From a virus: a stretch of 56,125 nucleotides of DNA. Shown piece by piece: positions 2,905-53,304 of the stretch. The stretch is from positions 1 through 56,125 of IMG/VR virus record IMGVR_UViG_3300020463_000027; one strand, given 5' to 3'. The position numbers and the translations under genes are program-made. The notes beneath the pieces are model-generated. The model did no database searches. It saw nothing but the letters and a program-made list of their open reading frames with translations, and was not told the DNA's origin. Position 1 is the stretch's first letter. Every line of letters begins with the position of its first letter.

Positions 2905-2905
2905 T

Positions 2906-3055
2906 ATGCTGATAAACGTAACCAAAGAAGAACTTGAAGTAATTGTACTGCAGTTATGGAAAAGTCGTAAGTCTGAAGAGAAAGTACGAGTGGTATACGA
3001 GAAGATGGAACCACTTCTAAATATTTGTAACTGTCAGGAAAAGAAAAATGCCTAA
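2906..3055 (+). CDS. Small hypothetical protein, 49 aa
   Basis: ATG 2906 follows the upstream stop by one base and the frame ends at TAA 3053-3055, inside the next gene. The product is a single predicted helix (VTKEELEVIVLQLWKSRKS) followed by a short Cys-containing tail (NICNCQEKKNA). The tight packing on both sides and the 8-base overlap with the PAAR-like gene support it as a genuine gene. I do not recognise the family. Confidence 0.6.
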   Translation: MLINVTKEELEVIVLQLWKSRKSEEKVRVVYEKMEPLLNICNCQEKKNA

Positions 3056-3392: not shown

Positions 3393-3395
3393 TAT

Positions 3396-3542
3396 ATGGC
3401 AAAAGCAAAAGGTGGATATGGTACTGCTGATACTATAGAAGCAACACCAAAGAAATCAAGACAAGGTACAGGATCACATACTAAGTATTCTGCGACTAGT
3501 AGAAATAAAGCAAAGAAGAGATCTAGAGGACAAGGTAAATAA
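3396..3542 (+). CDS. Small highly basic protein, 48 aa
   Basis: This 48-residue protein starts MAKAKGGYGTADTIEATPKK and ends KAKKRSRGQGK; nearly a third of its residues are Lys or Arg and it has no hydrophobic core. A short, basic family with a K-K-x-R-G-Q-G-K tail occurs beside baseplate genes in other marine T4-like phages, as I recall; no function is known. It sits between the PAAR-like gene and a 2OG oxygenase and overlaps the latter by one base (TAATG). It could bind nucleic acid or be a minor structural part; neither is shown. Confidence 0.65.
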   Translation: MAKAKGGYGTADTIEATPKKSRQGTGSHTKYSATSRNKAKKRSRGQGK

Positions 3543-7736: not shown

Positions 7737-7739
7737 GAA

Positions 7740-34731: not shown

Positions 34732-34758
34732 ATGTCTAGGGATACTGCAGCACCATGA
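34732..34758 (+). CDS. Eight-codon leader ORF overlapping the fibre start
   Basis: ATG 34732 opens MSRDTAAP and stops at TGA 34756-34758, sharing ATGA with the ATG 34755 of the giant fibre gene. AGGAAAA lies just upstream of the leader ATG, while the fibre ATG has no well-placed ribosome site (AGGGA is 13 or more bases away). Translational coupling through the leader is a plausible reading; a remnant N-terminus is the alternative. Confidence 0.35.
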   Translation: MSRDTAAP

Positions 34759-37700
34759 GTTTTCATATTAATTCCGATAAAGAGAAAATAAGGGGAGTCA
34801 ACCCCAAACTTATCGGTGATAATGAAGTTACTATTCGCTCTGGCACGGGGTCAGGAGAGAAGGAGATTCTGCGTGCTCAGTTAGATTCTCAAACAAACTT
34901 ACCTCGTGTTGGTATTAATAGAACTGGACAGAGAGTTAACAATATTACTATTGATACTGCTGGTTCTGGATACACTGTAAACCCAACTGTAACAATTGGT
35001 GCTCCTAATGTTGCTGGTGGTATTCAAGCACTTGCTTCTGCTTTTATCTTTAATGGTAAAGTTGTTTCTATTGCTGTTAATGAACCAGGTAGTGGATATA
35101 CAACTGCTCCTGCTATAAGTATCACAGAAGGTGGTGGTGCTGGTGCTACTGCTACTGCTGTTCTTGATACTGTAGATTTTGAACTTGACATCAACGGTGC
35201 GATTAGAACTTCAACTTCTATCATTTCTGACACTGCGAGAATTCTAAACCTTGACATTGACAACTTTGTTACTCCTAACGCAGCATTTAGAGCACCTAAT
35301 TTAAAAACATATGCTAATAACACAGGAACACCTTGGTCTCCTAATGTTATTATACGAAAAGATCAATACAGGTACTTCGGTGCCAACATGTATCAGGCAC
35401 TGAATACTGGACAGACTGCAGCATCTGCACCTGAGCATACAGATGGAACAGTATTAAATGGTGAAGTAGAGTTTAAACATATTGGTTTCCGTGTGGTTGA
35501 TCCTACAGAATATCAATATAATACCTCACCCGAATCAGGAGAATTTCCAAGATCTATCACACCTCTACTTGGTGACAGATCAGATAAGATTGCAACTACA
35601 GAATACGTACTTAATCTAGCAACGAATGATGTTGGTGGTCGTGTTTATGTTTCGCAACAGATTGGTTCTGACCTTAACGATGGTAGATCTGCTGTAAACC
35701 CAGTAAGAACTATTAAGAAAGCAGCACAGGAAGCATGGAAAACACCTGGTGTTAAAGAAACTATTATTGTATCTGGTGGTGATTATGTAGAAGACAACCC
35801 AATATCTCTACCTCCAGATTGTTCAGTTGTTGGTGATAACTTAAGATTGGTTCTTATCAGACCTCAGAATCCTAACAAACACATCATGAAGTTCGGTGAT
35901 AAGAACTACGTGATTGGTGTTACATACCGTGACCAAATTGATTCTAATGGTGACCCTGTTGCTACTTGGGACTTTGCTATGGTCTTTGACGATAAGCAAA
36001 GAGTCATAATTGATAAAGAAGCAAACGGTGATTTTGGAACACAGTTTGAAGTAGGACATCAGATATTCGGACCTCAACAGTTCCGTGTTGTTTATCAACA
36101 AAACACTGGTCTATCAGGTCTAATAAGTGGATTAAAAGTAAAAGGTGTTAACACTGGTTCTAGAGCAAAAATTTCTAATGTTACATTTGCCGAAACTACG
36201 GGAGCAAGTGCATATGTCAATGGTACAGTTGATGTTGACTTAATCAGTGGTTCATTTGTTGCTGGTGAAAGATTTGAGTATATAACATCTGTTAGTCCTG
36301 GTTCAAATACAGGAATGACTGTAACGCAGCAGCAAGGTGTTAACACATTAAGACTTACATCAGATCCTACAGGCACAATTCCTGGCGGTACAACTGTACA
36401 GTTAGTAGCTACTCCTTCAACTGGTAATTCATTTACTGGATTTTATGAGATAGAAAGTATTGATTCTACTCAATCAGCAAGTAATATTTGGGATGTTAAA
36501 TTCTTCCCATTATTATCAGCTCCAGAGTGGAGTGGTACTGGCATTGGTGGAACCTATACAATTAATGCTGCAACACCTGTTGTTGAAACATTTGACACAT
36601 CAACAATTAAATCAATCAGAGCTGAGGGTGAAGTTGTATCTGTTGACGAAGATTATACTACAACTCTTCCTGTTTCTAGAATTGACTTCTCATTACAGGG
36701 TGATCCTAGTATTGCAACAGGTGGTTTCCAAAGTCCACAGTTTGGTAACGCAGAAGATCTTGGTGGTATTATATTCTACACGAACGCATTAGTTGGTAGA
36801 ACAAATACACATGAGTTTAAAGATGGTCAAGAAATTGAAATTAGTGGTTTATCAACATCTAATCCAGACTTATCCGTTCTTATGGGTAAGCAAAGAATTT
36901 ATAAAGTCTTAGAAGATGCTGATGGTCGTTGCAGAAGATTTGTAATTCCTAAAAAATTACCATCACTTACTCAATCTAACTACGATCCTGGTCAATTTGC
37001 ACAAGTAAAAAACCACTCAAAAGTAGTTCTATTATCATTACTTAACTCTCCAAACACTTTTCCATTAACATCTCCTGTAGAAAGAAGATTCCAAGATGCT
37101 TGTGTATTCCTTCGTAATAACAGGGAATTTATTGCGGATGAAGTTGTAGGAATAATTAATAATCAGTTTGCTAGAAATTACTATTCTGTATATAATATTT
37201 CTGGAAGTTCTTTTGACATATATCTTGGACAGACAACATCAACACATACGTATGTGTCTGGTGGTACAGTAACATTTGGTGGTACAGCATATAACGTATC
37301 TGGTTTCCTTTATGATAACATAGTAACTGGTGTTGCTACTGTAACAACAACATCTCCTGTTGCTAACTTAGGAGAAGATCAAACAATTAAACTTGAGAAT
37401 GTATTATTAGAATGTGATTCTGGTCAAAAATTATATCCTTCATATAGTTCTCCTGACTCAACATCTTCTATTAGTGATGGTGATGAGCAATGTCGTCAGG
37501 ATGTTAATCACTTTATCAATGCTCTTGTAAGAGATTTAGAATTTGGTTCTAACTTCAATATTATTGATGCAGCAAGCAAATATGTTATTAGTGATGATAT
37601 TGCATATATCAAAGATGAAATTATATACAATGTTCGTGCTATTGAATATGCTAGACAATTAGCAATTTTAGCAATGAGAAATTGGAGGACTGATACTGGT

Positions 37701-40700
37701 ACTACCAATGATCCAATATACGTTCCAAAATATTCCAGTGTACCAAGATACTTTGATGACACTGTAATTACATCTACAGCTTTATTAAATGCAGATGGTA
37801 GTGCTAACAATACTGGTTTTGCTTGCAATGATGTAAGAGCTGCAATTGATACTCTTTCTTTCCTTTGGGTTGATGTTATTACAAAAAATCAGAGTGGTAC
37901 ATATCTTGATGCTGCATACTTAATTTCTAGAAACAAACATCTAATTGCAGACCAAGCATTGTTAGATGCTGAAGCAAACTATCCACTATTAAATCTATCT
38001 GATCTTAATGAGAGAAAATGTCGTAGAGATATAAGATTAATTCTAGATGGTTTAGTAAAAGATTTAGTATTTGGTGGTAACGAAGGTGTAGTAAATGCTG
38101 CAGAATTATACTTTACAGGAACAGCATTAACAGGAGTTCCAGAAGCACAAAGACCAGCAACAATATTTGCAGTCAATAGAGCAAAGTATTACGCACAAGA
38201 ATGTATGCGTAACTGGACTGATGGTAATATTCTAGAAACAACTCCAAACACTGCAACATACGATGCACAGACTGGTGCTTTAACTGTAACAATACCTGAT
38301 CCTATTATTACTCCAACTACTGGAGATAGAGTTGCGTTTAAAGAAGATGCTTTAAATTGGTCTTGTAACTACAACGGAACAACAGCAAACCATGCAGGTC
38401 CTTCACAAACTGATCCTACTTATGGAAAGAGTCATGAGATCACAAACGTAACATCTTCTGGTGGTAGTACAACAATTAGTTGTAATGTAGGAAATGCTGG
38501 TGCTGGTGCATCATCTCCACACTCATTTGTAAGTGCTATAACAGATGCTACAATCTTAATTTACAATCCAACACCAATGTCTTCGGATATTCCGAAGTTT
38601 GAAGATTGGAATATTCTTATTGATCCACAAGCATCTGCTGCAAGTTCAGTATTTACTCCAACAGACGCTAGTTATAATGCAGCAAATGGTAGGTTAGAAT
38701 TAACACTAGGTGCTGGTCACGGTGTTACTACATCAGATACAGTTCGTATTACTCCAGATTCATTAGTAATGACTTGTGGTATGGATGCGAATGCTACTGA
38801 GCATAGTTATCCACAATCGGGTCATCCAGCATATGGTAATTACGTTAATGTTGAGTCAACAACTACAGGTACAATCACAGTTGATGTTGGGACACCTGGT
38901 ACAAACAAAAACTTCACACCAACTGACGCTACATATGATCCTGCAACTGGATTATTAGAACTCACAATTGGCACTGGTCATGGAATTGATATAGATGAGG
39001 GGTTAGTAATTAATCAAGATTCATTGACATTTACATGTACAATGGATGGCAACCAAAGTCAGAAAACATACCCAAGATTTGGAAAAGATTATTGGAATGG
39101 AAGGTCTCTTCCAACTGTAGCAGTATCAGACACTACTGTCACAGTCAATATAGGTACTTCTCCTGCAAATAAATTATTGACTGCTGTAACAGGCACGACA
39201 TATAATCCTAATACTGGAGATTTAGTTTTACAAGTAGGACAGCATGGTATTGGAGTAGGAAGAAATATTGTATTAGAAGATGGTGCTGTCACATTTACAT
39301 GTGATCAGGATAGTAATGGCACAACACATCCATATCCTCGTTCTACTGACCCTGCATCTGGAGCATCTCTAGCAATAACTGCTGTTGGAACTACATCACA
39401 TACAGCAACTGATGCACCATATAACGCACTTAATGGTGACATAGTATTTACTATTACAAACCATGGATTTGAGGTTGGTGATTACATCAAGATTGATGAT
39501 AATGCATTGACATATACATGTGTTCTTGATGGTAATACTGCACAGAAAACATATCCTCGTACTAATTATGATAGAGCAAGTGGAAAATGGTTACAAATAA
39601 CAAGTAAAACTCAAAATACATTTGTAATTAATGTTGGTACATCACCATATACTGGTACACATAGTTTTGTAAGTGCTGCTGCTGGAGGAATTAAGAGACA
39701 AGATGGAACATTAACAGTTAATGTTGGAACCTCTTCTAACACAACCACTCATACATTTACTACTGGTCTTGCAAATGGTGTTAAGTTCTTACCACAATCT
39801 ACACATACATTTGTAAGTGCTAACTCCAATGCAATTTCACATACTCCAGGATCTACTCACACATTTGTAAGATCTGCTAATTCATCAATCTCAATCTATG
39901 CTGCAGGAGCAAATACCTTATGTTCTGGTGTTAATAATACAATCAATACCCTCATGGATCTTCTTGAGGATATTCTAGATGGAACTATTGCACCAGGTGC
40001 TACAACAACTAACAATGGAACATTATATGATACTGCACAGATAATTTCATATCCAGATAATTTCATCTATGATCAAAATAATAATAGATTAGCAATTCGT
40101 GGTATCTTTGATGATTATCCAATCATTGAAGCATCTCCATATACACAGAACGCATCTGTTATATCCTTCTTAGGAGGTGGTGGTGCTCTAGTTGATGGAT
40201 CTAAAGTTAAACAACCCAACTGCCCATTTCCTGGTCTTGAATTAGATGGATCTGCATCCTTCCCTAATCAGGGTAAGTCAATGGTTGCATCTGCATTCAC
40301 GATTGTTTCCTTTGGTGGTACTGGTTACAAAGTCATCAACGATGGTTATACACAGTTAGTTTCTGTGTTCGTTATTTTCTGTGCTGATGGTGTTCTTGCT
40401 GAGTCAGGTGGTTATTGTTCTATCACCAACTCTGCTACAAACTTTGGTATCTTTGCATTAAGAGGTGTTGGATATAGAGCAGAATGCTATTCATTTGACC
40501 AAGGTACAGTTAGTAACGTATCTGCTACACCTACTGGTAGAACGATACTTACAGTTAGTGGATTAGGAAGAGAACCACTTGAGCATTATGTTGTTAAGAT
40601 TGATGGATATACAAATACCAATACAGACATAGAATACTTTGTTGATGTTGTTGCTGGCGTTACTGTAGGTCCTCCTTTCTCTGCACAGTTAACCATTGAT

Positions 40701-43700
40701 GATGGTACTGGTGGTTCAATGAACCTAACTGAGACTGCTACTGGTAATCCTGTATCTACAAGTGCTCTCTCAGGTAAAGTAATTAAATTACATAGACCAT
40801 CTATCGTTAACTCATCATCACACACTTGGGAATTTGCTGGATCAGGTACTAACTACCTAGCACTACCTGAGAACGGTGGTACTAAGACAGAAGCATACGA
40901 ACAAGTTTCTGAACAGTATGGTCGTGTATACGTCTCTGGTACTGACGAACTTGGAGACTTTAAGGTTGGTACATTTGCTAACATTGAAAACAGAACTGGT
41001 GCGATTACCTTTACTGGTACGGTTACAATCTCTGAAGTTGAATTCTTAAAACTAAAAGGTGGTGACGTTGTTGTTACTGGTTTTGATGCATCTAACACAT
41101 TAGGTGGTGCTAACTCTAGTGACTCTAAACTACCTACACAGAAAGCGGTTAGAGATTACATCACTAACTCTTTAGGACCTTACATCAACAAACCATACTC
41201 TACTAACGCAGTTCCTAGAGCACTGGTTGAATTGACTGACTCTGGTAAGATATCTATTGACCAGATTCCTGCTCTAAGACCTTTCCAAGTCTTTACAGTT
41301 GCTGATCAAGCAGAAAGAACATCTCTAGAAGGTGCACTTGCTGGTGATATCGCAATCCAACAAGATACATCTACATCGTTCATCTTGAACAATGACAACG
41401 ATAGTTTATTCTTATCATTTGCAGTAGATTCTGGATTAGCATTTACAATAGGTGACGTATTCACAGGAAGTCTAACAACAGGAAGAATACAAGCAACAGA
41501 ATATAGACAAGGTGTTCTTTATCAGATCAACGTATCAAATGGTGGTTCTGGATATACGGTTGCTCCTACTATAACAATCAGTGGTGGTAATCCATCAGCT
41601 GGTGCAGTAGCTGCACAAGCATCTTGTACAATTGCAAATGGAACAGTTGTTACTGTTACTATCAATAGTTTCGGTGGATACATAGGTGGTTTAGGATATA
41701 CTACACAACCCACAATCTCATTTGCTGCTCCTCCAGGTGCTGGTGTACAAGCACAGGGTACTGGTTTAATTGAAAGTAGACTCTATGGTAATATTGTTAA
41801 TAATGTCAAGATAGAAGATACTGATACTATTGATGATAGTACAACACCAAGTGCAAATACAGTCAATCTTACTAGAGTTATTAACACATCATCATTTGAT
41901 AATAACAACTGGGTATCTCTATCATCTAACCAGATTGCTGCATCAGATATTACATCAGGTGTTATTGAAACAGATAGATTAGCAACAGGTGGTGCTGCGA
42001 ACTCATTCACATTCTTAAGAGGTGATCAGAACTTTGCATTAGCAGTTCAGTCAGTCAAGGGTGCAGAGAGTAGATACTTTGCTAAATTAGCAGCACAGTG
42101 TAGTAGTGGATCATCACAAATGATCTTTACAACTAACTCTGATGTTCTTATAGGACATGAAGTTAAGAATACTATCAGTGGAATACAAAATAACACAAAC
42201 ATTAATGGTGTTGTTACTGCTGCTGGTCTAACAACTATCTCTTTAAATAACCCAGTCAACGCAACAATTCCTTTAGGAACTATCATTGAGTTTGAGCGTG
42301 GTGCATCCCCATTGACATTTGAATCTACCTTTACTCAAGGTGGATTTGTTGATGATGTTATCGTCGCAAACGGAGGATCAGGGTTTACAAATGGACAGTA
42401 TTTTGATATTCCTCTTACTGGTGGTTCGGGAACGGGATTAAAATGTAACATTGTTGTTGCTGGTAACGTAGTTACAGAATTAACAGTAACAGATGGTGGT
42501 AGTGGATATAGTGCTGACTTTACTGTAACATCAAATCCAACTCAGATTGGTTCTGGTTCTAGTCTTGTTTTAGGAGCAAAAGTTTCTACAGTTAACAGAC
42601 AGTATGCAAACGTATCTCTTGATGTTAACAGAGTTACAGATCTTACTATCTCTGCTGACCTTTATGGAACAATTGGTGTTGGAAGATATAAAAAATCACA
42701 ATTTAATATTGGAACATCTGGAAATGGATCTATAGAACTTAAGACTGGTGCTGATAGTGGACTAGATGCTGACTTACTTGATGGTGTACAAGGTTCTTTC
42801 TACTTAGACGCTAGTAATCTAAATCAAGGTTTTCTTTCTAAGGATAGAATGTCTGGAATTTATGACATTGATGTTTCTGGTCAGTCTGGTAATACAATTA
42901 GACTTCTTACTGGTACTAACTTACCATCTTCAGATCCTGCACCAAACAACTTTGCTTCTGGTATTGTTTCAAACACTGTATTCAATAGTGCAGTTGGATT
43001 AAATGATGGTGGTACTAGAACTCAGATTCTTACATTAAGACAAGGTGGTGCTGGTTTTGATACTGGATTTGGTGGTGTAAGACAACTTGCATTTACAGAT
43101 AATGATAACTTCTATATTCGTGGATCTGGAACTGGTGTATCATCATTTGGATCTTGGGGTAAGGTTTGGACATCACTTAACGATGGTGTAGATTCTGATC
43201 TAGATGCTGACAGATTAGACAATAGACAAGGTGACTGGTATCAGAACGCACTTAATATTAACTATGGAACTCTTTCAACAGAAAGATTGCCATCATGGAT
43301 TGAAGCAACTAGAGTTAGAGATTCTCTTACAGTCAAGTCTTACTTAGGAGATCCTAAGTATAAGATTTATTTCTCAGGACTTATTCTAGATACATCTGCA
43401 ACTGGCGTATTTGCACCAGGTAATCCAATCAACCTATACAACTCTAACGCACAGGGTGTTGGTAGCTTTACAATTGATAATGTTGTAACGAATGATGATA
43501 CTTCTGATAACTTTAATGATTATACAATCATTATTGGTAGACTTACATCTGGTAATTTTGTTGGTGCTATAACTGCTGGTACTGCATCAAATAGAGTTGC
43601 ATTTGATGACTTCTCTATTGAAGATGGTAACACAGTTGATGTTGGTAAATTAGAAAGTTCTGGTGGAACTGCATTATTAAAACTGGGTAGAATTGATGGA

Positions 43701-45137
43701 CAATCATCAAGTCCTGCAATTTACTTTAGATCATCACAAACAGTTCCTGCTAGTGCTGATGGACATAGAACAGCATCTATCACTGCATCTGGTGGTAACG
43801 CAACTGCAAACTCAGGAACATTAGAAGTATCTGTTGCTAATGCTGATGGTCTTACAATCAACGGTCAGAAGATATGGAACGAAGGTAATGTAATATTCAG
43901 AAATTTAAACGTAGCAGACTCTGCTGTTCTTCGTGATTCATCTGGTAACTTCTCTGCTGGTACAATCACTGCATCACTATCAGGTGCAGCATCAGCAAAC
44001 GTATTGAAGACTGGTGACACTATGACTGGAACCCTAACCATTACAGGTGCTGGTTCTAACTTTAATGTATCTGGTAATGCACAAGTTTCTGGAACAACTA
44101 CTCTTACTAATGACCTTGCAGTAGACACTGATACATTATTCGTTGACATATCAACAGACAGAGTTGGTATTAATGCTGGTGTTAACCCATCAGCAACATT
44201 ACATGTTAAAGGTGATGATGGTATATTCATTCACACACTTACTAATGCTGTTGGTGCTAAGATTAAATTTAGTGATAATGCACCAACACCTGGTCAAAAT
44301 GGTACAATTGAATACAAACATGCTGACAGTAGTTCACCAAACTCTGAGTATGGTGAAGGATTTACAATATCTGGTGATCAACCAGAACTATATCTTCGTG
44401 TTGTTGGTGATATTATTGCATCTAGAAAATTAGGTATCAATATAAATCGTGAACCAGATTACACACTTGAGGTTGATGGCGATGCATTAATCAATGCAAC
44501 ACTTAATATTGATAACAACAATGATAATGGTGGTGCAAGAATAAACTTCCGTGGTGCTTCATCCTATAGAAACTTTGTAGTTAGTAATCAGGTAGTAGGT
44601 AATGATCTATTCACAATCCAAGCATCTACTAATAATGGTGGAACAACTTGGAATAGTACACCAGCATTTACAATTAATGGTAGTACAAATAGAGTTGCTA
44701 TCAACACAACTAACACATCTGGTACTGATCCCTCTAATAATCAGAACAGAAATTATCAACTAAATATACAAGGAGACGTTAACTTTAACGGAACTCTTTA
44801 CCAAAACAATGCTGAGTTTGTTACTTCTCGTTGGACAGAATCACCTAACGGAGCTGATATTTACAGACCATCTAAAGTTGGTGTTGGATTCTCAAGTGCA
44901 AAGAATCCAGACGAAGCATTAGAGGTTGAAGGTAACATTGAAGTTAGTGGAACACTCAAAGCAAATGGTGATAGTATGTGGATTGACACCTATGGTGTTA
45001 TGAAAGCAAACAGAAACACTGTTTCTGAAAACATTACAATCCCAACTAACATTAACTGTGGTAGTTTCGGACCTCTTGAAATTACTAACGGTACAACAAT
45101 TACAATATCAAACGGGGCAGCCTGGAGCATAATCTAA
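34755..45137 (+). CDS. Giant tail fibre protein, 3460 aa
   Basis: Regions in order: a beta-rich N-terminus with two GSGYTxxPxxxI repeats (to ~150); a pectin-lyase-like, DUF1565-type start (about 297-390; VYVSQQIGSDLNDGRSAVNP); two helical modules with DLEFGSN and DLVFGGN (about 912-980 and 1087-1155); five tandem ~75-residue repeats with the core TC-x-x-D-x-N (about 1190-1650); a beta region with GTGYKVINDGY (about 1860); a segment with KLPTQKAVRDYITNSLGPYI; short-fibre-like repeats (DADLLDGVQGSFYLDASNLN; DADRLDNRQGDWYQNA); and the tip TITISNGAAWSII. This is the architecture of cyanophage long fibres, probably with the N-terminus at the baseplate. The start follows an 8-codon leader ORF. No intramolecular chaperone domain was seen. 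Confidence 0.85.
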   Translation: MSFHINSDKEKIRGVNPKLIGDNEVTIRSGTGSGEKEILRAQLDSQTNLPRVGINRTGQRVNNITIDTAGSGYTVNPTVTIGAPNVAGGIQALASAFIFNGKVVSIAVNEPGSGYTTAPAISITEGGGAGATATAVLDTVDFELDINGAIRTSTSIISDTARILNLDIDNFVTPNAAFRAPNLKTYANNTGTPWSPNVIIRKDQYRYFGANMYQALNTGQTAASAPEHTDGTVLNGEVEFKHIGFRVVDPTEYQYNTSPESGEFPRSITPLLGDRSDKIATTEYVLNLATNDVGGRVYVSQQIGSDLNDGRSAVNPVRTIKKAAQEAWKTPGVKETIIVSGGDYVEDNPISLPPDCSVVGDNLRLVLIRPQNPNKHIMKFGDKNYVIGVTYRDQIDSNGDPVATWDFAMVFDDKQRVIIDKEANGDFGTQFEVGHQIFGPQQFRVVYQQNTGLSGLISGLKVKGVNTGSRAKISNVTFAETTGASAYVNGTVDVDLISGSFVAGERFEYITSVSPGSNTGMTVTQQQGVNTLRLTSDPTGTIPGGTTVQLVATPSTGNSFTGFYEIESIDSTQSASNIWDVKFFPLLSAPEWSGTGIGGTYTINAATPVVETFDTSTIKSIRAEGEVVSVDEDYTTTLPVSRIDFSLQGDPSIATGGFQSPQFGNAEDLGGIIFYTNALVGRTNTHEFKDGQEIEISGLSTSNPDLSVLMGKQRIYKVLEDADGRCRRFVIPKKLPSLTQSNYDPGQFAQVKNHSKVVLLSLLNSPNTFPLTSPVERRFQDACVFLRNNREFIADEVVGIINNQFARNYYSVYNISGSSFDIYLGQTTSTHTYVSGGTVTFGGTAYNVSGFLYDNIVTGVATVTTTSPVANLGEDQTIKLENVLLECDSGQKLYPSYSSPDSTSSISDGDEQCRQDVNHFINALVRDLEFGSNFNIIDAASKYVISDDIAYIKDEIIYNVRAIEYARQLAILAMRNWRTDTGTTNDPIYVPKYSSVPRYFDDTVITSTALLNADGSANNTGFACNDVRAAIDTLSFLWVDVITKNQSGTYLDAAYLISRNKHLIADQALLDAEANYPLLNLSDLNERKCRRDIRLILDGLVKDLVFGGNEGVVNAAELYFTGTALTGVPEAQRPATIFAVNRAKYYAQECMRNWTDGNILETTPNTATYDAQTGALTVTIPDPIITPTTGDRVAFKEDALNWSCNYNGTTANHAGPSQTDPTYGKSHEITNVTSSGGSTTISCNVGNAGAGASSPHSFVSAITDATILIYNPTPMSSDIPKFEDWNILIDPQASAASSVFTPTDASYNAANGRLELTLGAGHGVTTSDTVRITPDSLVMTCGMDANATEHSYPQSGHPAYGNYVNVESTTTGTITVDVGTPGTNKNFTPTDATYDPATGLLELTIGTGHGIDIDEGLVINQDSLTFTCTMDGNQSQKTYPRFGKDYWNGRSLPTVAVSDTTVTVNIGTSPANKLLTAVTGTTYNPNTGDLVLQVGQHGIGVGRNIVLEDGAVTFTCDQDSNGTTHPYPRSTDPASGASLAITAVGTTSHTATDAPYNALNGDIVFTITNHGFEVGDYIKIDDNALTYTCVLDGNTAQKTYPRTNYDRASGKWLQITSKTQNTFVINVGTSPYTGTHSFVSAAAGGIKRQDGTLTVNVGTSSNTTTHTFTTGLANGVKFLPQSTHTFVSANSNAISHTPGSTHTFVRSANSSISIYAAGANTLCSGVNNTINTLMDLLEDILDGTIAPGATTTNNGTLYDTAQIISYPDNFIYDQNNNRLAIRGIFDDYPIIEASPYTQNASVISFLGGGGALVDGSKVKQPNCPFPGLELDGSASFPNQGKSMVASAFTIVSFGGTGYKVINDGYTQLVSVFVIFCADGVLAESGGYCSITNSATNFGIFALRGVGYRAECYSFDQGTVSNVSATPTGRTILTVSGLGREPLEHYVVKIDGYTNTNTDIEYFVDVVAGVTVGPPFSAQLTIDDGTGGSMNLTETATGNPVSTSALSGKVIKLHRPSIVNSSSHTWEFAGSGTNYLALPENGGTKTEAYEQVSEQYGRVYVSGTDELGDFKVGTFANIENRTGAITFTGTVTISEVEFLKLKGGDVVVTGFDASNTLGGANSSDSKLPTQKAVRDYITNSLGPYINKPYSTNAVPRALVELTDSGKISIDQIPALRPFQVFTVADQAERTSLEGALAGDIAIQQDTSTSFILNNDNDSLFLSFAVDSGLAFTIGDVFTGSLTTGRIQATEYRQGVLYQINVSNGGSGYTVAPTITISGGNPSAGAVAAQASCTIANGTVVTVTINSFGGYIGGLGYTTQPTISFAAPPGAGVQAQGTGLIESRLYGNIVNNVKIEDTDTIDDSTTPSANTVNLTRVINTSSFDNNNWVSLSSNQIAASDITSGVIETDRLATGGAANSFTFLRGDQNFALAVQSVKGAESRYFAKLAAQCSSGSSQMIFTTNSDVLIGHEVKNTISGIQNNTNINGVVTAAGLTTISLNNPVNATIPLGTIIEFERGASPLTFESTFTQGGFVDDVIVANGGSGFTNGQYFDIPLTGGSGTGLKCNIVVAGNVVTELTVTDGGSGYSADFTVTSNPTQIGSGSSLVLGAKVSTVNRQYANVSLDVNRVTDLTISADLYGTIGVGRYKKSQFNIGTSGNGSIELKTGADSGLDADLLDGVQGSFYLDASNLNQGFLSKDRMSGIYDIDVSGQSGNTIRLLTGTNLPSSDPAPNNFASGIVSNTVFNSAVGLNDGGTRTQILTLRQGGAGFDTGFGGVRQLAFTDNDNFYIRGSGTGVSSFGSWGKVWTSLNDGVDSDLDADRLDNRQGDWYQNALNINYGTLSTERLPSWIEATRVRDSLTVKSYLGDPKYKIYFSGLILDTSATGVFAPGNPINLYNSNAQGVGSFTIDNVVTNDDTSDNFNDYTIIIGRLTSGNFVGAITAGTASNRVAFDDFSIEDGNTVDVGKLESSGGTALLKLGRIDGQSSSPAIYFRSSQTVPASADGHRTASITASGGNATANSGTLEVSVANADGLTINGQKIWNEGNVIFRNLNVADSAVLRDSSGNFSAGTITASLSGAASANVLKTGDTMTGTLTITGAGSNFNVSGNAQVSGTTTLTNDLAVDTDTLFVDISTDRVGINAGVNPSATLHVKGDDGIFIHTLTNAVGAKIKFSDNAPTPGQNGTIEYKHADSSSPNSEYGEGFTISGDQPELYLRVVGDIIASRKLGININREPDYTLEVDGDALINATLNIDNNNDNGGARINFRGASSYRNFVVSNQVVGNDLFTIQASTNNGGTTWNSTPAFTINGSTNRVAINTTNTSGTDPSNNQNRNYQLNIQGDVNFNGTLYQNNAEFVTSRWTESPNGADIYRPSKVGVGFSSAKNPDEALEVEGNIEVSGTLKANGDSMWIDTYGVMKANRNTVSENITIPTNINCGSFGPLEITNGTTITISNGAAWSII
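38320..39700 (+). repeat. Five tandem ~75-residue repeats in the giant fibre
   Basis: The repeat cores, in order, are LNWSCNYNG, LVMTCGMDAN, LTFTCTMDGN, VTFTCDQDSN and LTYTCVLDGN, each followed by a Pro-containing stretch (SYPQ, TYPR, PYPR, TYPR in units 2-5) and strands with VNVGT or similar. Units 2 and 3 both open with FTPTDA. The first unit is most divergent. The fixed Cys in each unit is notable for a phage fibre. Confidence 0.8.
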
Positions 45138-46020: not shown

Positions 46021-46167
46021 ATGAAAGCTTACATAATTTACATCATCATAGGTATATTCTTCCTAACATTAATCAAAGGAACACTTAAGATTGATAGGAG
46101 TGAACGAAACCAAAGACTGTACAATGAACTATGTCAGATAGATAAAGATTATTGTGTAGAAGAATGA
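46021..46167 (+). CDS. Small single-span membrane protein, 48 aa
   Basis: ATG 46021 follows a T-run and begins MKAYIIYIIIGIFFLTLIKG, one hydrophobic helix of about 17 residues followed by a charged, probably cytoplasmic tail (KIDRSERNQRLYNELCQIDK). It has no cleavage site, so the segment is probably a membrane anchor. It overlaps the next gene by ATGA and lies behind the sigma-70-like promoter at 45971. A small phage membrane protein of this type may act in lysis or in the host envelope; neither is shown. The family is not recognised. Confidence 0.65.
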   Translation: MKAYIIYIIIGIFFLTLIKGTLKIDRSERNQRLYNELCQIDKDYCVEE

Positions 46168-46778
46168 ATCTAATTTTTGATTCTGAGCATGTCAAAGTTT
46201 ATGATGATGTGCTTCCAGAAGAGGATTTTGGGATGTTGTTTGAATGGTTTAATATAATACCCTTTATGAACATTCAAAAAACTGAGGGTGTATGGAATCA
46301 TGTTTGGAGTCCTGATGCAAAAGTATTAAAGGGACAACCAATATATTTTCCAGCAGGAAGAGTTCCTCCTCTTGATGGTATTGATAAATCTTTAATATCA
46401 ATTATAGAAAAAATTAATTCTATAATTAATGAAGGTAGAGTTACCATGACTCCATATTACTACATGCCAGAATCTGGACTAAATTGGCATAATGATCGTG
46501 CTCATCAAAAAGCATTTACTTTTTATTGTCACAAAAGTTGGTCACCAGAATGGGGTGGAGAGTTTCAAACGCTTGATTTGAAAGGTGAGGATAGGAAAAT
46601 AGTTTGGAAAATTTTTGACAATAAAGAATTATTTGATGCTATGATTGATAGAGGCATAGGACAATTCTTTCACCCTAAACCAAATAGATTAATTGTGAAC
46701 TCTGGTATAATGCATAAAATTAATACAACTAGCAAAGATAGTAGTGCTAGACTATCGTTACAAGGATTTATTGCTTAA
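46164..46778 (+). CDS. 2OG-Fe(II) oxygenase, 204 aa
   Basis: The start is ATG 46164 (ATGA overlap with the membrane-protein gene); an upstream TTG is in frame but unlikely. The catalytic set is textbook: His109 and Asp111 (LNWHNDR), distal His184 (IMHKI) and Arg196 (ARLSLQGF), with the conserved SPEWGGEFQTL between. The N-terminal third (FDSEHVKVYDDVLPEEDF) is typical of P4H-like phage enzymes. It should be an active hydroxylase needing Fe(II), 2OG and O2; the substrate is unknown. The neighbours are fibre genes and a second oxygenase two bases downstream. Confidence 0.82.
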   Translation: MNLIFDSEHVKVYDDVLPEEDFGMLFEWFNIIPFMNIQKTEGVWNHVWSPDAKVLKGQPIYFPAGRVPPLDGIDKSLISIIEKINSIINEGRVTMTPYYYMPESGLNWHNDRAHQKAFTFYCHKSWSPEWGGEFQTLDLKGEDRKIVWKIFDNKELFDAMIDRGIGQFFHPKPNRLIVNSGIMHKINTTSKDSSARLSLQGFIA

Positions 46779-46780
46779 TT

Positions 46781-47470
46781 ATGGAACATCAAATAATTGA
46801 ATTTTTTCCACAAGTTTGTGGAGTATACACATATCCAGAAGATAAAATTGTAAATATTAAATTAGTATGTCAAAAAATTAGAGATACTATAAAACCAGGC
46901 GATGAAAATTATAATCAGAATGCATTATGTGGTGATCTATTTCATTATTATAATGAATCTAACACAAACATATACGATTTTCATCCAGAGCTAGAAGATC
47001 ATAGAAAATGGGTTACTGAATGTGCTACTCATTTTTTTACTGAAGTTCATAACTATGTTCTATCAGATGAAAATGAATTATTGATGACTGATGCTTGGAT
47101 GAATTATTGTTTAGAGAGAGGACAGCAAACAGAACATAATCATCACAATTCGTTGATATCAGGAACATATTATGTTAACATGATAGATTGGGTTCATGCA
47201 CCTATTCAATTTATGAAGAGAGAACCAGAGTGTCATCCCTATATCGCTCACGCAAAAGACTGGGACTCCCCTAATAAATATAGTAGGTATGTTGAAGACA
47301 TTAGACCTAAAGAAGGAGATCTTCTACTTTGGAAGTCTCATTTATTACATGGTTATAATGGTAATCTCAACATGTGGGCAGATAGAACATCTATCTCCAT
47401 GAACTTTATGCCTAGGATACTAGACAATGGTAAATACTCATTTGTAATTAACAATAGAAACGATGGATAA
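46781..47470 (+). CDS. 2OG-Fe(II) oxygenase, PF13759-like, 229 aa
   Basis: This belongs to another branch of the superfamily, PF13759 type: TEHNHHNSLISGTYYVN (118-134) carries His residues at 119, 121 and 122 followed by the SGTYYV strand, and GDLLLWKSHLLHGYNGN supplies the distal His190, with Arg202 in RTSISMNF. The EDIRPKEGDLLLW segment precedes the distal ligand as expected. The N-terminal half is helical. It is widespread in cyanophages, with no known substrate. It starts two bases after the preceding oxygenase and overlaps the next gene by 8. Confidence 0.82.
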   Translation: MEHQIIEFFPQVCGVYTYPEDKIVNIKLVCQKIRDTIKPGDENYNQNALCGDLFHYYNESNTNIYDFHPELEDHRKWVTECATHFFTEVHNYVLSDENELLMTDAWMNYCLERGQQTEHNHHNSLISGTYYVNMIDWVHAPIQFMKREPECHPYIAHAKDWDSPNKYSRYVEDIRPKEGDLLLWKSHLLHGYNGNLNMWADRTSISMNFMPRILDNGKYSFVINNRNDG

Positions 47471-47777: not shown

Positions 47778-49145
47778 ATGGCGTCAACATTAAGAACTGA
47801 TAATATATCAACTCTGTCTGGAACAGGAGCAGTAAATATTGCACAGAGTGTTGGCATTCAAGGCAACATAGATTTTACTGGAAACTTGTTACAGAATGGA
47901 CAACCATTTGTTACTTTACCAGAACAATCTATAGAAACCATGGGTGCTACACTAGCATCTGATGGTATCACAGCATACTGGGCACATCCAAATACATTTG
48001 AAAATAATGCTGGTAGTACAAATATGCCACCAGGTGATGCAGATACAGGTGGTATAAACTTACAGAACCCAGTAACACCAGCTAACGGTTATCTACCTTT
48101 TGATGGAACTGGTAATTGGTATGACTATCAAGGAAATACTTATTCAATAAACGTAGGATCAGAATTTAAGTATAGAAGTATTTTTACACATGGGTTCTTG
48201 ATGGGTGGATATAGAGGAGCAAACCCATGGAGAACTGTTAACCAAACATTCCATGCTACAGACGTTACTATATGTCGTGGAGACCAATTAGATAGAGCAG
48301 CAACCTATGTTGATGGAAACTTTGGAGATTATAACGGATATGTTTATGGTGGTAACAACAGTTGGGGAGGAAACTCTGCACATACTTCTTCTATAAACTT
48401 ACACACAGGAACAGGGAGAACAGCTGGATCTTCACCATCTTATAACACAACTGATAACTATAGTACCACACCTGACACTATTGGTGTTGGTTGGGACTTA
48501 TATGGTTCTGTTAACGATTCTGGTGCTACATCAGGTCAGACTGTACAAAGAGGTTATGTTACAGGTGGTGGTGACCAAGGAAGTAGTTCTTGGGGTAGAA
48601 TGAACTTCTCATCAGAACTAATGTCTAGAGTTGGTGGAGGACATACATCTGACTTCTGTTCTGCCACTGAAGGAGAACTTAGAGGATATTCTTATTCTGA
48701 CACAGGTAACTCTAGATATATTGAGTTTGCATCTGAATCAACTGGAAACTGGAGTACATCTAATATTACTGGTGATGGTTGGAAAAAATCTTTATCTACA
48801 AAATGGAATATTGGTTATCATGGTAACGGTAATAATGTTCAGCAGCAATGGATGAAGTTTACACATAACTCTGGAGCATTTATATCAACCTTCAATCAGA
48901 TTGACGTTGATTCTGGTGAAGAGAATATGGAAATGGGTCAAGACTGGGGATACATGATGGGTAACTACTCAGGTGGTGGTGGATCTGGTAATGCTCGTCA
49001 GAACAATAGATGTATGAAAATATTCCATGCTAATGATAGTATGACTATGATGGGATATAAAACAGAACCAAAAGGACACCAAGGTCAATCATCAGGAGCA
49101 TGTGTCACAGCAGCATTTACTGTAACTGCTACAAGATATCAGTAA
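47778..49145 (+). CDS. Tail fibre/adhesin protein, 455 aa
   Basis: The N-terminus (STLRTDNISTLSGTGAVNIA) is the common short attachment segment of cyanophage fibres, followed by GNIDFTGNLLQNGQPF. The remainder is rich in Gly, Asn, Ser, Thr, Tyr and Trp with repeated short strands (HGFLMGGYRGANPW, YVYGGNNSWGGNSA, RGYVTGGGDQGSSSWG, WGYMMGNYSGGGG), suggesting a multi-bladed beta-propeller-like or other beta-repeat receptor domain. There is no fibrinogen core. It ends TAAFTVTATRYQ. A host-recognition role is inferred from composition and context. Confidence 0.75.
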   Translation: MASTLRTDNISTLSGTGAVNIAQSVGIQGNIDFTGNLLQNGQPFVTLPEQSIETMGATLASDGITAYWAHPNTFENNAGSTNMPPGDADTGGINLQNPVTPANGYLPFDGTGNWYDYQGNTYSINVGSEFKYRSIFTHGFLMGGYRGANPWRTVNQTFHATDVTICRGDQLDRAATYVDGNFGDYNGYVYGGNNSWGGNSAHTSSINLHTGTGRTAGSSPSYNTTDNYSTTPDTIGVGWDLYGSVNDSGATSGQTVQRGYVTGGGDQGSSSWGRMNFSSELMSRVGGGHTSDFCSATEGELRGYSYSDTGNSRYIEFASESTGNWSTSNITGDGWKKSLSTKWNIGYHGNGNNVQQQWMKFTHNSGAFISTFNQIDVDSGEENMEMGQDWGYMMGNYSGGGGSGNARQNNRCMKIFHANDSMTMMGYKTEPKGHQGQSSGACVTAAFTVTATRYQ

Positions 49146-49146
49146 T

Positions 49147-50082
49147 ATGAAAAAGAAACTTAATTTTATAGAAGAAAAAGCATTTGAGGTAGAATGGACT
49201 TCTAAGATACCATCACATATGGTATTGGATGAGGACATGCTACGTCCAGAATATGAACCATCACATCCACTTGAAATAGAAGTTAGAAAGTTTATTAAAG
49301 ATAAAGAAGACATACAGAAGGGATATATTATTATGGGTCTATGTGAAGAGGACCTTCGTTCTATGGAATTGAGACCACATGATACAACATATCATAATTG
49401 TTATAATTTTTATAACATATCAATTGTTAAAATGAAACGTGATGTATTTGAAACACTAAAATCTGGTCTTAAAAGATATATTGAATTTACTGAAAGAGAA
49501 CTACATGATGGTGTAAACTATGCTGGTGAAGTAAGACAATACTCAAAAGATTATATTGCTTCTATGGATGAGAGAGGACAAGTTCAATGGAATAAAGGTA
49601 AAGTTCCAATGAACTCTAAAAAAATTATTAATGCACTGTCTTGGATGAGAAAGTTGGCAATCTTAGTTATTGAAAGAGAATTTGAATTGAGATTTAAAAA
49701 CTTTAAAAATTGCCATGATGTAGAAAGTGAGTCATGGACATATCAATTACCAGAAGCAAGAGCATATAAAAACAGTTCAGATGCAGAAACACCTTTCTTA
49801 GATATACTTGCAATGACTAGAGGTATGAGAAAAGAGATATTGGTTGACAAAGTATTAGAAAAACATAATGAATATGTAAGAGCATACGCAGCACTCTTAG
49901 GTAAATATCATGCTATTCGTTCACAATTCAAACTTGCGGACAATATGTGGGACATGAATATCCTCTGGGAAGACTACCTAAATATAGGTATGCCACGAGT
50001 TCAAGCAACTAAGTTAGGACGAGTGGATGACAACATGAACAGATTGAACGGTGAAGTCGCATATGGAACATTCGGATTCTAG
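49147..50082 (+). CDS. Fibre-region protein with DUF4376-like C-terminus, 311 aa
   Basis: The start lies one base after the fibre gene. The N-terminal two-thirds are alpha-helical and charged, with no recognised domain. Around residues 196-265 the pattern ESWTYQLPEARAY, TPFLDILAMTRGMRKEIL and KHNEYVRAYAALLGKYHAI resembles the W-x-x-Q-x-x-EA ... TPLLD-x-LA-x-x-R-G pattern of DUF4376-type phage tail/fibre-assembly proteins. That suggests an assembly or scaffold role for the neighbouring fibre. It ends with a 20-base overlap with the next gene. The resemblance is by eye, not a search. Confidence 0.55.
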   Translation: MKKKLNFIEEKAFEVEWTSKIPSHMVLDEDMLRPEYEPSHPLEIEVRKFIKDKEDIQKGYIIMGLCEEDLRSMELRPHDTTYHNCYNFYNISIVKMKRDVFETLKSGLKRYIEFTERELHDGVNYAGEVRQYSKDYIASMDERGQVQWNKGKVPMNSKKIINALSWMRKLAILVIEREFELRFKNFKNCHDVESESWTYQLPEARAYKNSSDAETPFLDILAMTRGMRKEILVDKVLEKHNEYVRAYAALLGKYHAIRSQFKLADNMWDMNILWEDYLNIGMPRVQATKLGRVDDNMNRLNGEVAYGTFGF

Positions 50083-50917
50083 TATTGATTTAAGATCTAA
50101 ATTATCAAATTCTGATATTATAGATGCTGCAGTAAATTTGGAAATGGGACAGACAATGTATCAGAATGATACTTTTGTTGTTGGTTCTCAGATTACTCCA
50201 TACAAAAAAGTTCAACAAGCATTGTTGGAACTAGAAGCAAGACAACATGGGTATGTTGAATTACAGTACAAACATAAGTTATGTACAAACTCAAGAAAAA
50301 AATTAGAACGTGAGTTAGAAAAAGAAAAGAATAGACCTGACTCAGATGAATTGGAAGTAGAGAGAATAGAAATAGAATGGGACAAAGCAAAGTACGACGA
50401 GTCTTTGTTTGAGAAAAAGTATCTTACATATGAGAGAGAAATATCTGAGTTCTGTGATATGGTTCGCAACCACATGGACGATAAGAAAAGTATAGAATAT
50501 TATCGTATAACACAAGAAGACGAGGATAGACAGTATTGGATTACTAGAATGGCAAAACAAGCTGCAGTTGACGTACACAACTGTGGTAGGATTGGAAGTG
50601 GTAATTTAGATTCTATTTTAAATATGCCAGCAGAAGATCAGTTAACTGCTATACAAGGTGCTGTAGAACATGCTACAATGTTAACAGCAGGAGTAGAAAA
50701 AATGGCACAGCAATTGTTGCCAGAAGTTAGAAAAGTGATTGAAGGATCATTTCAAAATTATTCCGTTCCTAAACTTATGGCAGAGATATCTAAAGATATT
50801 GAACCTAAAAAACTTAAAAGTCCTATGACTCTTGAATTGAAAAGTCCTGTTGAAAAACAGATTTTAACAACCTTACCTAATGACAAGATCCGTCTTCAGT
50901 CTCCCAATAAATCCTAA
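50063..50917 (+). CDS. Helical coiled-coil protein, 284 aa
   Basis: I choose ATG 50063 (MEHSDSSIDLRSKL) over the in-frame GTG at 50051. The middle of the protein (about 50-150) is a long, charged coiled coil (SRKKLERELEKEKNRP, then LEVERIEIEWDKAKYD); the C-terminal third has a helical segment AIQGAVEHATMLTAGVEKMA and a Lys/Pro tail containing two L-K-S-P copies. I recognise no enzyme motif. The overlaps on both sides (20 and 38 bases) tie it to the DUF4376-like gene and the U32-methyltransferase gene. Confidence 0.6.
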   Translation: MEHSDSSIDLRSKLSNSDIIDAAVNLEMGQTMYQNDTFVVGSQITPYKKVQQALLELEARQHGYVELQYKHKLCTNSRKKLERELEKEKNRPDSDELEVERIEIEWDKAKYDESLFEKKYLTYEREISEFCDMVRNHMDDKKSIEYYRITQEDEDRQYWITRMAKQAAVDVHNCGRIGSGNLDSILNMPAEDQLTAIQGAVEHATMLTAGVEKMAQQLLPEVRKVIEGSFQNYSVPKLMAEISKDIEPKKLKSPMTLELKSPVEKQILTTLPNDKIRLQSPNKS

Positions 50918-52607
50918 ACTTGATAAACAGTTTACGGATGGAATGTTTATTCCATGGTTGACAAAATATAAAGTTTACATTAAAGACTTGTACTTTACAT
51001 GTAGAATGCCACCCTTCACTCAAGATGCGATGGGTGATGTTTTTGCTGGAGATATATCTCAGTTAGTTTTTAACTCTTTAGTAATATCAAGAGAGACAGA
51101 GATACCTATCTCAGCAACATTCAATAACATATATGTTAGACCTGATCAAGAAGGATTGGATTTATTCATTCATAATTTCAGACAAATATATGAAAATTAT
51201 AATGTTCGTATTGCTACGATACCACACACTACATGGGTATCGTCTGGTCAAATTCAGTCAGCATTTCCTGACTTAAAAATTAAGAATACTATACTGAGGA
51301 ATGTTTGTAAGGCAAACGATATCGTAAATCTTGCTAAGTCTGGCTTTCATTATATCAACTTAGATAGAGATATGATGCGTGATAAGACTGGATTACTAGA
51401 GATAAAAAAAGCAAAGGAATACTGCGAGAAAATTGGCAAACCAGTAGAGATTTCATTACTAGCAAACGAGGGTTGTTGGGGTGGTTGTACAATTATGGAT
51501 GAACATTATCATTTTAATAGTACGAGACAAGGTAAGTCTCCACAGTTCTTTATGGATCCTATCAGTACAAACTCTTGTTCTAAATGGGATATAGAAGATC
51601 CTTCTTCTGCATTGAAAGCAGCAAACTTACCTCCATGGAGAGAAGATTGGGAAGAGTTCCTTGACCTTGGCATAGATGTATTCAAGATGCATGGTAGGGA
51701 AAATATGATGAGACTTAAAGAGTCTATGGATATTATAGAGAGATGGGCAAAAGAAGATGAACTTCTATTCCCTGAGTTTGATGAGTATATGGATGACTTA
51801 AAAGTAAAGGATGCTCCGATAAACTTGTGGAGGGAAAAGATTAAAACATGTAAGTTTGACTGTTGGGATTGTAATTATTGTGAGTCTGTTGTAGAGTCAC
51901 ATCTTAAGAAAAAAGGAGAGACATTTGATGTAGAAGAATATACACAAAGGTGTATGGATGCTATTGATAATGCATCATCATTCAAATCTAATTTCGTATC
52001 AGATGGGTATGAAGTTCGTGGAATTACATCAGATAGAGTTAGACATTTTTTAAATAATCTCTGTTCTTATGATGACTCAGTATATCTTGAACTAGGAACA
52101 TTGATGGGCAGTACTTTTTTTGCTGCTACTATGGGTAATGATATAGAAAATATCGGTGTTGATAATTATTCAGAACCAGAATGCAAACCATTGACTAATA
52201 ATATTCAATGGAATGAAGTAGGTAATACTTTTGAAGAGTTTAAAAGATACTTTGATAAGTATGAAAATGGAAAATCAACATTTATAAAATCTGATATACT
52301 TGATTTAAAGGAAAAAGATTTTGAAGGTAAGAAACCAAATGTGGTATTCTATGATGCTAACCATGATTATGTTCAACAACTTAATTGTTTGAATCATATT
52401 GCACCTTTCTTAGCAGACAAATTTATTCTTATAATAGATGACGCTAACTTTGATGGGGTAATTGAATCGGCAATACAATTTGTCAAAGATAATAATTATG
52501 ATCTGTATTTTGAGAGAAAAATTCTTAGTGCGATCATAGAAAATCCAACACATTGGTGGAATGGTTTATTTGTAATGGTATTGGAGAAACCTAATGAAAG
52601 TAATTGA
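50880..52607 (+). CDS. U32-like Fe-S TIM barrel fused to class I methyltransferase, 575 aa
   Basis: Residues about 30-340 look like a divergent U32-family TIM barrel: VEISLLANEGCWGGC (Cys199, Cys203), Cys233, and VFKMHGREN, which stands where U32 proteins have KIEGR. A cysteine cluster C-x3-C-x2-C-x2-C follows (Cys324, 328, 331, 334). U32 proteins such as RlhA, TrhP and UbiU/V are not peptidases in the main but hydroxylation-type enzymes, several with a 4Fe-4S cluster. Residues about 375-570 are a class I SAM methyltransferase (VYLELGTLMGSTFFAATMG, then ENIGVDNYSEP and FILIIDDANFDG), like Methyltransf_24. A coupled hydroxylation-methylation is a hypothesis. The fusion is in one uninterrupted frame. 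Confidence 0.65.
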   Translation: MTRSVFSLPINPKLDKQFTDGMFIPWLTKYKVYIKDLYFTCRMPPFTQDAMGDVFAGDISQLVFNSLVISRETEIPISATFNNIYVRPDQEGLDLFIHNFRQIYENYNVRIATIPHTTWVSSGQIQSAFPDLKIKNTILRNVCKANDIVNLAKSGFHYINLDRDMMRDKTGLLEIKKAKEYCEKIGKPVEISLLANEGCWGGCTIMDEHYHFNSTRQGKSPQFFMDPISTNSCSKWDIEDPSSALKAANLPPWREDWEEFLDLGIDVFKMHGRENMMRLKESMDIIERWAKEDELLFPEFDEYMDDLKVKDAPINLWREKIKTCKFDCWDCNYCESVVESHLKKKGETFDVEEYTQRCMDAIDNASSFKSNFVSDGYEVRGITSDRVRHFLNNLCSYDDSVYLELGTLMGSTFFAATMGNDIENIGVDNYSEPECKPLTNNIQWNEVGNTFEEFKRYFDKYENGKSTFIKSDILDLKEKDFEGKKPNVVFYDANHDYVQQLNCLNHIAPFLADKFILIIDDANFDGVIESAIQFVKDNNYDLYFERKILSAIIENPTHWWNGLFVMVLEKPNESN

Positions 52608-53304
52608 TAGAAAACTTTTTTCTGTAGCACACCCATCTAGTTGGGAAGTAGAGCAAAAACACATAGGAAAACATAAAAATAGACTAGTAATAGTCAGAGA
52701 TTTTTTTCAATATCCTGATGAGTTAAAAGCATATGCACAATCCATAGATTATGTTTCCACATATCAAGGAGAGGTTACAAATCTACCAGGTTTCATTCAT
52801 TATATGAGCATACATAAGAAAGCTTTGTATGAACCAATGAAGTATGTGGCAACAAAATACTTTGAAGGTAGTGGTGAGATAATGAGATTTCCTGATGAGA
52901 CTAGGTTTGGATTTCAGATATATGATATGAAAGAGAAGTGTAGATATCAAAGTTTATTTCCACATACAGATGAAGTTAGGTATGCTGGTGTCTTGTCTTT
53001 CAATACAGAAGACGAATATGATGGTGATGATAATGGCACATCATTCTTTAGAAGTGAAGAGACAGGAGAAGAGACTACATTGTATGATAAAAACTATAGA
53101 GCAAAAAGATTATTAAATCCTGTACAGGCAATGGTAAACTTTGATCCATCTCAGGTAAAGCATAAAGAATGGACAAGGTATCATATAGAACCACATGAAT
53201 TTAACAAATTAATCATGTATGAGGGTAACCTTTGGCATTCAATTCATTTCCAACAAAAAAAGTGGAACGCAAATAGAATGACTTTTAATGCTTTTATACG
53301 ATAA
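52594..53304 (+). CDS. DUF6445-like 2OG-Fe(II) oxygenase-type protein, 236 aa
   Basis: The N-terminus (RLVIVRDFFQYPDELKAYAQ) and a later FPHTDEVRYAGVLSF segment match DUF6445-type proteins, a branch of the 2OG-Fe(II) oxygenase fold. His124 and Asp126 form the HxD pair, His215 (NLWHSIHF) is the distal ligand and Arg228 the 2OG-binding residue. The sequence FDPSQVKHKEWTRYHIEPHE precedes the distal strand. It overlaps the end of the U32-methyltransferase gene by 14 bases, so the two are probably co-translated. The substrate is unknown. Its stop is followed by a late promoter box. Confidence 0.72.
   Translation: MKVIDRKLFSVAHPSSWEVEQKHIGKHKNRLVIVRDFFQYPDELKAYAQSIDYVSTYQGEVTNLPGFIHYMSIHKKALYEPMKYVATKYFEGSGEIMRFPDETRFGFQIYDMKEKCRYQSLFPHTDEVRYAGVLSFNTEDEYDGDDNGTSFFRSEETGEETTLYDKNYRAKRLLNPVQAMVNFDPSQVKHKEWTRYHIEPHEFNKLIMYEGNLWHSIHFQQKKWNANRMTFNAFIR

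Follow-up and report, generated by a model that had tools for sequence, protein, structure and literature searches.

Which reaction might be carried out by a viral protein in which a barrel resembling the U32 oxidases is joined to a methyltransferase, and on which target would it act? The question is raised by a gene of the 56-kb virus record IMGVR_UViG_3300020463_000027, analysed over its whole length of 56,125 nucleotides (the window). The gene lies at 50880–52607 on the + strand, as do all window features given with coordinates below except the large frames mentioned near the end of the viral section, and encodes a U32-like barrel fused to a SAM-dependent O-methyltransferase (575 aa). A preliminary description, made from the letters of the DNA, had proposed that one polypeptide performs both hydroxylation and O-methylation. 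It saw in this a new phage RNA-modification enzyme, with a small molecule or a virion protein as the alternative target. The domain homologies and the recurrent pairing of such barrels with O-methyltransferases favour the two-step idea, which would probably hold. As for the target, the evidence does not support RNA, and a viral surface protein is more likely than tRNA.

The Gene and Its Family

The reading frame opens with ATG, and this start is credible because conservation extends up to residues 4–6; in some GenBank records the start is placed later. The gene shares 38 bases with the one upstream of it and 14 with the one downstream. The protein is matched across nearly its whole length by phrog_1458 (E 3.5e-245), and the match to phrog_36869 is confined to the first 340 residues. 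The preliminary description recommended looking for the fusion in other phages, and it is indeed there: tblastn detected the gene in 123 of 50,697 phage records, all of them Synechococcus/Prochlorococcus phages, with at least 80% of the length matched in each. A profile scan confirmed the family in at least 552 IMG/VR stretches. The plasmids searched contained no relative.

The family itself is not new. P-SSM4 and Syn19 carry the gene as T4-GC354, labelled "hypothetical protein", and T4-GC354 is a catalogued cyanophage gene family whose function is not given (Sullivan et al. 2010, PMC3037559). Neither half is recognised in the annotations inspected. When the protein in full length, or a profile of it, was compared directly with PDB sequences, nothing was found, and literature searches turned up no paper on a U32–methyltransferase fusion in phages. 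What is already known is the family in cyanophage catalogues, the U32 oxidases and the COMT-like enzymes.

A Divergent Branch of the U32 Superfamily

The barrel occupies residues about 1–345 (50880..51914). Pfam finds no domain in this N-terminal half, PF01136 has no match above cut-off in the fused protein or elsewhere in the window record, and weak PF01136 matches appear in only 4 of 23 homologs (best E 0.045). For this reason, deeper alignments were built. The AlphaFold model of the barrel, based on 40 relatives, shows eight beta strands in order (pLDDT 85, pTM 0.86). In Foldseek, the top matches are structures of MTHFR and the U32 protein MK0906 (5d88, TMt 0.67), with similar E-values, so the (beta/alpha)8 fold alone is not decisive. 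The comparison of sequence profiles does decide. With a shallow alignment, hhalign gave 70% for U32; with a deeper one, the comparison with U32, including E. coli TrhP, RlhA, UbiU and UbiV, reached 95.6–96.6% (E 1e-8 to 6e-10; controls MTHFR 5%, DHPS 0.1%). After Chloroflexota relatives were added, it rose to 97.9% (E 3.3e-13), with the TIM-barrel controls at 6.0% for MTHFR and 0.3% for DHPS. Identity of the barrel as an MTHFR, the top Foldseek family, is ruled out by this comparison. Against the PDB, the barrel profile gave weak matches only, with de novo barrels foremost.

The gap to Pfam was closed by bridge proteins. They come from a search of 400 genomes from the phylum of a Dehalococcoidia MAG (G002), with matches in 10. 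Three of the proteins, from among the more distant ones (L294, L296 and L297), pass PF01136 at 31.1, 57.7 and 44.3 bits, respectively (cut-off 22.4), reach E-values of 4e-25 to 2e-16 against the barrel profile and share with the barrel the CX3C pair and the C-terminal cysteine cluster. Since they pass both tests, the barrel is a divergent branch of the U32 superfamily, and the U32 homology proposed at the outset is borne out by profile search.

The landmarks named in the preliminary description are at the expected places. The C199-x3-C203 pair (51474..51488) lies within NEGCWGGC, and in the hhalign register it corresponds to the final CX3C of the U32 cluster. A third invariant cysteine, C233, is encoded at 51576..51578. 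The KMHGRE motif (residues 269–274; 51684..51701) aligns with the U32 motif KIEGR, and in the AlphaFold model KMHGR sits at strand 8 (267–269). Beyond it follows C324-x3-C328-x2-C331-x2-C334 (51849..51881), likely further Fe-S ligands. In an alignment of 55 sequences, nine positions never vary (C199, C203, H209, C233, K269, G272, R273, C324 and C328); C331 and C334 are conserved in 98%. The alignment takes in the bridge proteins that pass Pfam U32, and the C-terminal cysteine cluster is kept there. Near-invariance across 55 relatives means that the cysteine and KxxGR motifs are not chance occurrences.

A [4Fe-4S] cluster can be predicted from these seven cysteines, each at 98–100%. The classical U32 cluster pattern is CX6CX15CX3C (PMC6747719). 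In the barrel, this four-cysteine motif (CX6CX15CX3/4C) is half kept: only CX3C has a counterpart and the CX6C pair is absent, so that the other ligands would be C233 and C324–C334. Two other matches were considered and set aside. A radical SAM enzyme, suggested by the occurrence of CX3CX2C, is ruled out, because the barrel is in register with U32 and has the motif behind strand 8 instead of at strand 1. The weak NCBIfam matches of the barrel, YopJ-type ones among them, score far under the curated cut-offs, lie outside the conserved motifs and are attributed to chance.

The same comparison bears on the target. The hydroxylation of RNA bases needs the U32 proteins TrhP and RlhA, which speaks for RNA, and in TrhP an essential glutamate, E162, stands eight residues before the first cluster cysteine (PMC6599085). 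This position varies among the relatives of the phage barrel (E, K, L, A, M, T and others), and the conserved E197 of the family lies elsewhere in the motif. The TrhP/RlhA-type C-terminal domain, on the RNA side, is also absent according to Pfam; the barrel passes into the cysteine cluster and then into the methyltransferase. With the missing CX6C pair, these differences argue against RNA.

The Methyltransferase Half

The C-terminal part, residues about 380–575 (52017..52604), had been described as a class I methyltransferase with the motif LELGTLMGSTFFA, and so it proved: this is the SAM-binding motif of the Methyltransf_24 domain. Within the methyltransferase half (METHYLTRANSFERASE), residues 403–521 match Methyltransf_24 (PF13578) at E 2.3e-6 and 28.8 bits, above the cut-off of 26.3, and all 23 homologs examined match the same domain (E up to 10). 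Residues D492, D520, D521, N523 and E554 and the sequence WNG are invariant. A profile built from 18 versions, fused and separate, has a single significant match in the PDB, TrmR (YrrM) of B. subtilis (5zw3, E 1e-5). D492 and D520–D521 stand in register with acidic metal-site residues of TrmR; in the COMT family, such residues act as metal ligands. The match with the metal-site acids in register thus predicts a metal-dependent, COMT-like O-methyltransferase.

That TrmR is the best PDB match would also suit an RNA target, as would the operon that B. subtilis trmR shares with two U32 genes (PMC6599085) and the known TrhO–TrmR fusion of eukaryotes. Nevertheless, the match leaves the substrate unfixed, since the COMT family, to which TrmR belongs, is broad. 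The methyltransferase half is moreover acidic (pI 4.6, charge -14), which argues against RNA binding.

Recurrent Pairing of Barrel and Methyltransferase

In cyanophages, the barrel and the methyltransferase form a single fused protein. In other viruses (L125, L126, L156, L159, L163, L169–L171 and L175–L183), the barrel is a separate protein of 352–361 aa, and in every representative read, the next gene overlaps it and encodes the same methyltransferase in about 200 aa. One of these loci (L181) also carries a subtilase gene (6794–8617; PF00082, E 7e-30) two genes downstream of the split pair. Of six Dehalococcoidia loci, three (L290, L292 and L293) have an O-methyltransferase gene immediately next to the barrel gene, and this one belongs to another family (PF00891/PF08100). 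That the barrel is paired with two O-methyltransferase families unrelated to each other argues that it would create a hydroxyl group.

The Viral Neighbourhood

The surroundings of the gene suggest what might be modified. The presence of an adjacent DUF6445 oxygenase and of fibre-type genes, noticed from the start, was upheld by Pfam and phrog matches. The overlapping 3' neighbour (52594..53304) is a DUF6445 protein (PF20043, E 2.9e-13), a putative Fe(II)/2OG oxygenase in which an HTD...H...R motif can be read by eye. DUF6445 is not named in the literature searched. Upstream are the phrog_1409 protein (50051..50917) and the phrog_1604 protein (49147..50082), each linked to the barrel in 168 of the 175 viral loci with enough upstream DNA. 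They are preceded by a fibre-like "sericin 1 precursor-like" gene (T4-GC351; 47778..49145), whose product is a candidate substrate. Further upstream lie a 2OG-Fe(II) oxygenase (46781..47470; PF13759, E 1.5e-14) and an oxygenase-like protein (46152..46778) with an HND motif and a PF13640 match just under the cut-off (E 4.9e-5).

Relatives of the last protein (phrog_19810, phrog_274) are labelled "DNA endonuclease V", a label that is probably wrong for 46152–46778 to judge from its motif and domain match. Some P-SSM4-type neighbours annotated in the same way have no Pfam match, and for this reason not all of them are called oxygenases here.

In most viral loci, the order is a fibre gene, phrog_1604 and phrog_1409 in either order, the barrel with or without the methyltransferase, and then DUF6445 or a 2OG oxygenase. 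A fibre gene lies upstream of the barrel in most loci, and an oxygenase of the tested families lies downstream in 96 of 137. The barrel, phrog_1409 and the fibre gene each occur in 123 of the 50,697 phage records with equal organism tallies, compared as tallies. DUF6445 of the window type occurs in only 9 phage records. In a 111-kb virus contig (L220) with a barrel 37% identical to that of the window, DUF6445 overlaps the start of the barrel, which has no methyltransferase. In S-SM1 (L271 23497–26679), three annotated 2OG-Fe(II) oxygenases, one of them confirmed, occupy this place behind the T4-GC346 fibre gene, and the stretch examined holds no annotated member of the barrel cassette. The window contains no tRNA gene, and none of the genes next to the fused one was recognised as belonging to glycosyl transfer or to a small-molecule pathway.

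Three giant open reading frames lie upstream of the cassette, at 7740–18875 (3711 aa), 20801–28900 (2699 aa) and 34755–45137 (3460 aa). They are probably tail or fibre proteins and are possible substrates.

Bacterial Relatives

Barrels were found in 5 of 399 Campylobacterales genomes. In one (L188), the barrel is followed by genes for an outer-membrane efflux protein (OEP), a C39-type ABC transporter and HlyD; the end of the upstream gene was read by eye as that of what is presumably an RTX-type secreted protein, for which Pfam gives only a weak DUF5776 match. In another (L234), it is followed by DUF6445 (E 2e-22) and a radical SAM/SPASM protein, and in a third (L235), it lies near M50/HlyD, SecA and Trp_halogenase genes. 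These contexts, each from one genome, look like the maturation of secreted proteins or peptides, and none of them is typical of tRNA modification.

Two further loci were noted. In L233, the barrel (8852–9919, - strand) comes directly after type III CRISPR-like genes (Cas6/Cas10/Csm), read by eye. L236 encodes tandem proteins of about 540 aa (662–2323 and 2335–3954, - strand), in which an additional N-terminal part precedes a barrel that carries KISGR and the cysteine motifs.

In Dehalococcoidia (L288–L293), the barrels adjoin or lie near reductive dehalogenase genes. PF13486 was confirmed in L288, L289 and L291, and the other loci hold TAT-type proteins similar to reductive dehalogenases. This context suggests a small molecule or another target in these bacteria. 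In L288 and L294, the barrel adjoins a DAHP synthase, the first enzyme of the shikimate pathway.

Proposed Reaction and Target

In the explanation that we favour, the U32-like Fe-S barrel would hydroxylate the target, probably without O2 and, like the U32 oxidases already known, with oxygen taken from the shikimate-derived compound prephenate. The tethered, metal-dependent COMT-like methyltransferase would then cap the new hydroxyl on the same target as a methyl ether. When ubiquinone is made anaerobically, prephenate supplies the oxygen, and U32-dependent RNA hydroxylation requires it (PMC11574389). The DAHP synthase neighbours fit the use of prephenate and are suggestive only. By analogy with the U32 relatives, we infer Fe-S binding, hydroxylation and the donor, and likewise the order of the steps; the substrate is proposed from genomic context. 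The most likely target would be a virion protein of the surrounding tail-fibre cassette, on which the fused enzyme may work alongside the DUF6445/2OG oxygenases. A virion protein is favoured because of the cassette of fibre and oxygenase genes in viruses and the bacterial loci with secretion genes, radical SAM/SPASM and DUF6445. Of the alternative targets first named, it is the virion protein that fits better than RNA.

The confidence that can be placed in these proposals differs. Hydroxylation followed by O-methylation is probable, given the domain homologies and the pairing. That the same two-step enzyme acts on a virion (fibre) protein has a little less than an even chance. More tentative is the wider proposal that the whole branch with CX3C and C-terminal CX3CX2CX2C hydroxylates proteins independently of O2 and that the cyanophage fusion forms methyl ethers on tail-fibre proteins. 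Several observations weigh against the favoured reading. The classical CX6CX15CX3C motif is only half kept, phage synteny can be passive, the Campylobacterales contexts come from single genomes, and the CRISPR-like locus, the Dehalococcoidia dehalogenases and the rarity of DUF6445 among phage records fit it poorly. An O2-independent hydroxylase would also be hard to explain in a phage of oxygen-evolving hosts.

The barrel might instead use the U32 fold and its Fe-S ligands for a reaction other than hydroxylation, with the methyltransferase acting on the product. The cysteine set (CX3C, one more cysteine and CX3CX2CX2C) is unlike that of known hydroxylases, the glutamate essential in TrhP is not conserved, and published work has yet to settle how U32 proteins catalyse their reactions (PMC11574389). 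The repeated pairing with O-methyltransferases points to a new hydroxyl, however, and with the shikimate-pathway neighbours in two loci makes another reaction rather unlikely.

Unlikely as well is a small-molecule or glycan target, for example a sugar, quinone, lipid or pigment that the host would use or that would afterwards be joined to the virion. UbiU and UbiV do act on ubiquinone precursors (PMC6747719), COMT-like enzymes often use small molecules, and the Dehalococcoidia barrels adjoin a small-molecule-type O-methyltransferase and reductive dehalogenases; against this, the fused gene co-occurs with fibre genes, and in the window no such pathway genes next to it were recognised.

Least probable is a role on tRNA or rRNA in infected cells. 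There the barrel would hydroxylate a base, to 5-hydroxyuridine or to a different product, and the methyltransferase would form 5-methoxyuridine. The barrel motifs, the acidic methyltransferase half, a window free of tRNA genes and contexts of fibre, oxygenase and secretion genes speak against the new RNA-modification enzyme first envisaged.

Whichever target applies, a long-unassigned cyanophage gene family gains a testable function. The branch widens the U32 superfamily to hundreds of viral contigs, to Campylobacterales and to Dehalococcoidia, and it has its own cysteine pattern and is repeatedly paired with an O-methyltransferase. If the fibre-protein target is true, adhesion proteins of phages would be chemically modified in very common ocean viruses; to our knowledge, a protein-hydroxylating U32 branch would provide the first case of a U32 enzyme that modifies proteins, and of a virion modified in this way. 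If tRNA were the target, phages would rewrite wobble decoding.

Comparison with Known Systems

The fused protein belongs to the same gene family as phrog_1458 / T4-GC354, a catalogue entry without function. With the U32 oxidases (PF01136; TrhP, RlhA, UbiU–UbiV), the phage barrel shares the (beta/alpha)8 fold, KxxGR at beta 8, a CX3C pair of the Fe-S type and detectable profile homology. It differs from them in lacking the CX6C pair, the conserved glutamate of TrhP and the RNA-side C-terminal domain, in having its own C-terminal CX3CX2CX2C and in scoring below the Pfam cut-off by its sequence alone. TrmR, the ho5U34 tRNA methyltransferase of B. subtilis, is likewise a COMT-like O-methyltransferase associated with U32 proteins. 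However, TrmR is a separate protein in an operon with TrhP1/TrhP2, whereas the phage methyltransferase is fused to the barrel in cyanophages; the phage domain also differs in being acidic. Its alignment with TrmR spans some 90 residues (E 1e-5), with an Asp-Asp pair in place of the Asp-Asn of TrmR. The O-methyltransferases of the TylF/NovP type belong to the same Pfam family as the phage domain (Methyltransf_24, PF13578), and NovP has what we take to be the same pattern of metal ligands, Asp...Asp-Asp. Unlike these enzymes, the phage domain is fused to, or encoded in overlap with, a U32-like barrel.
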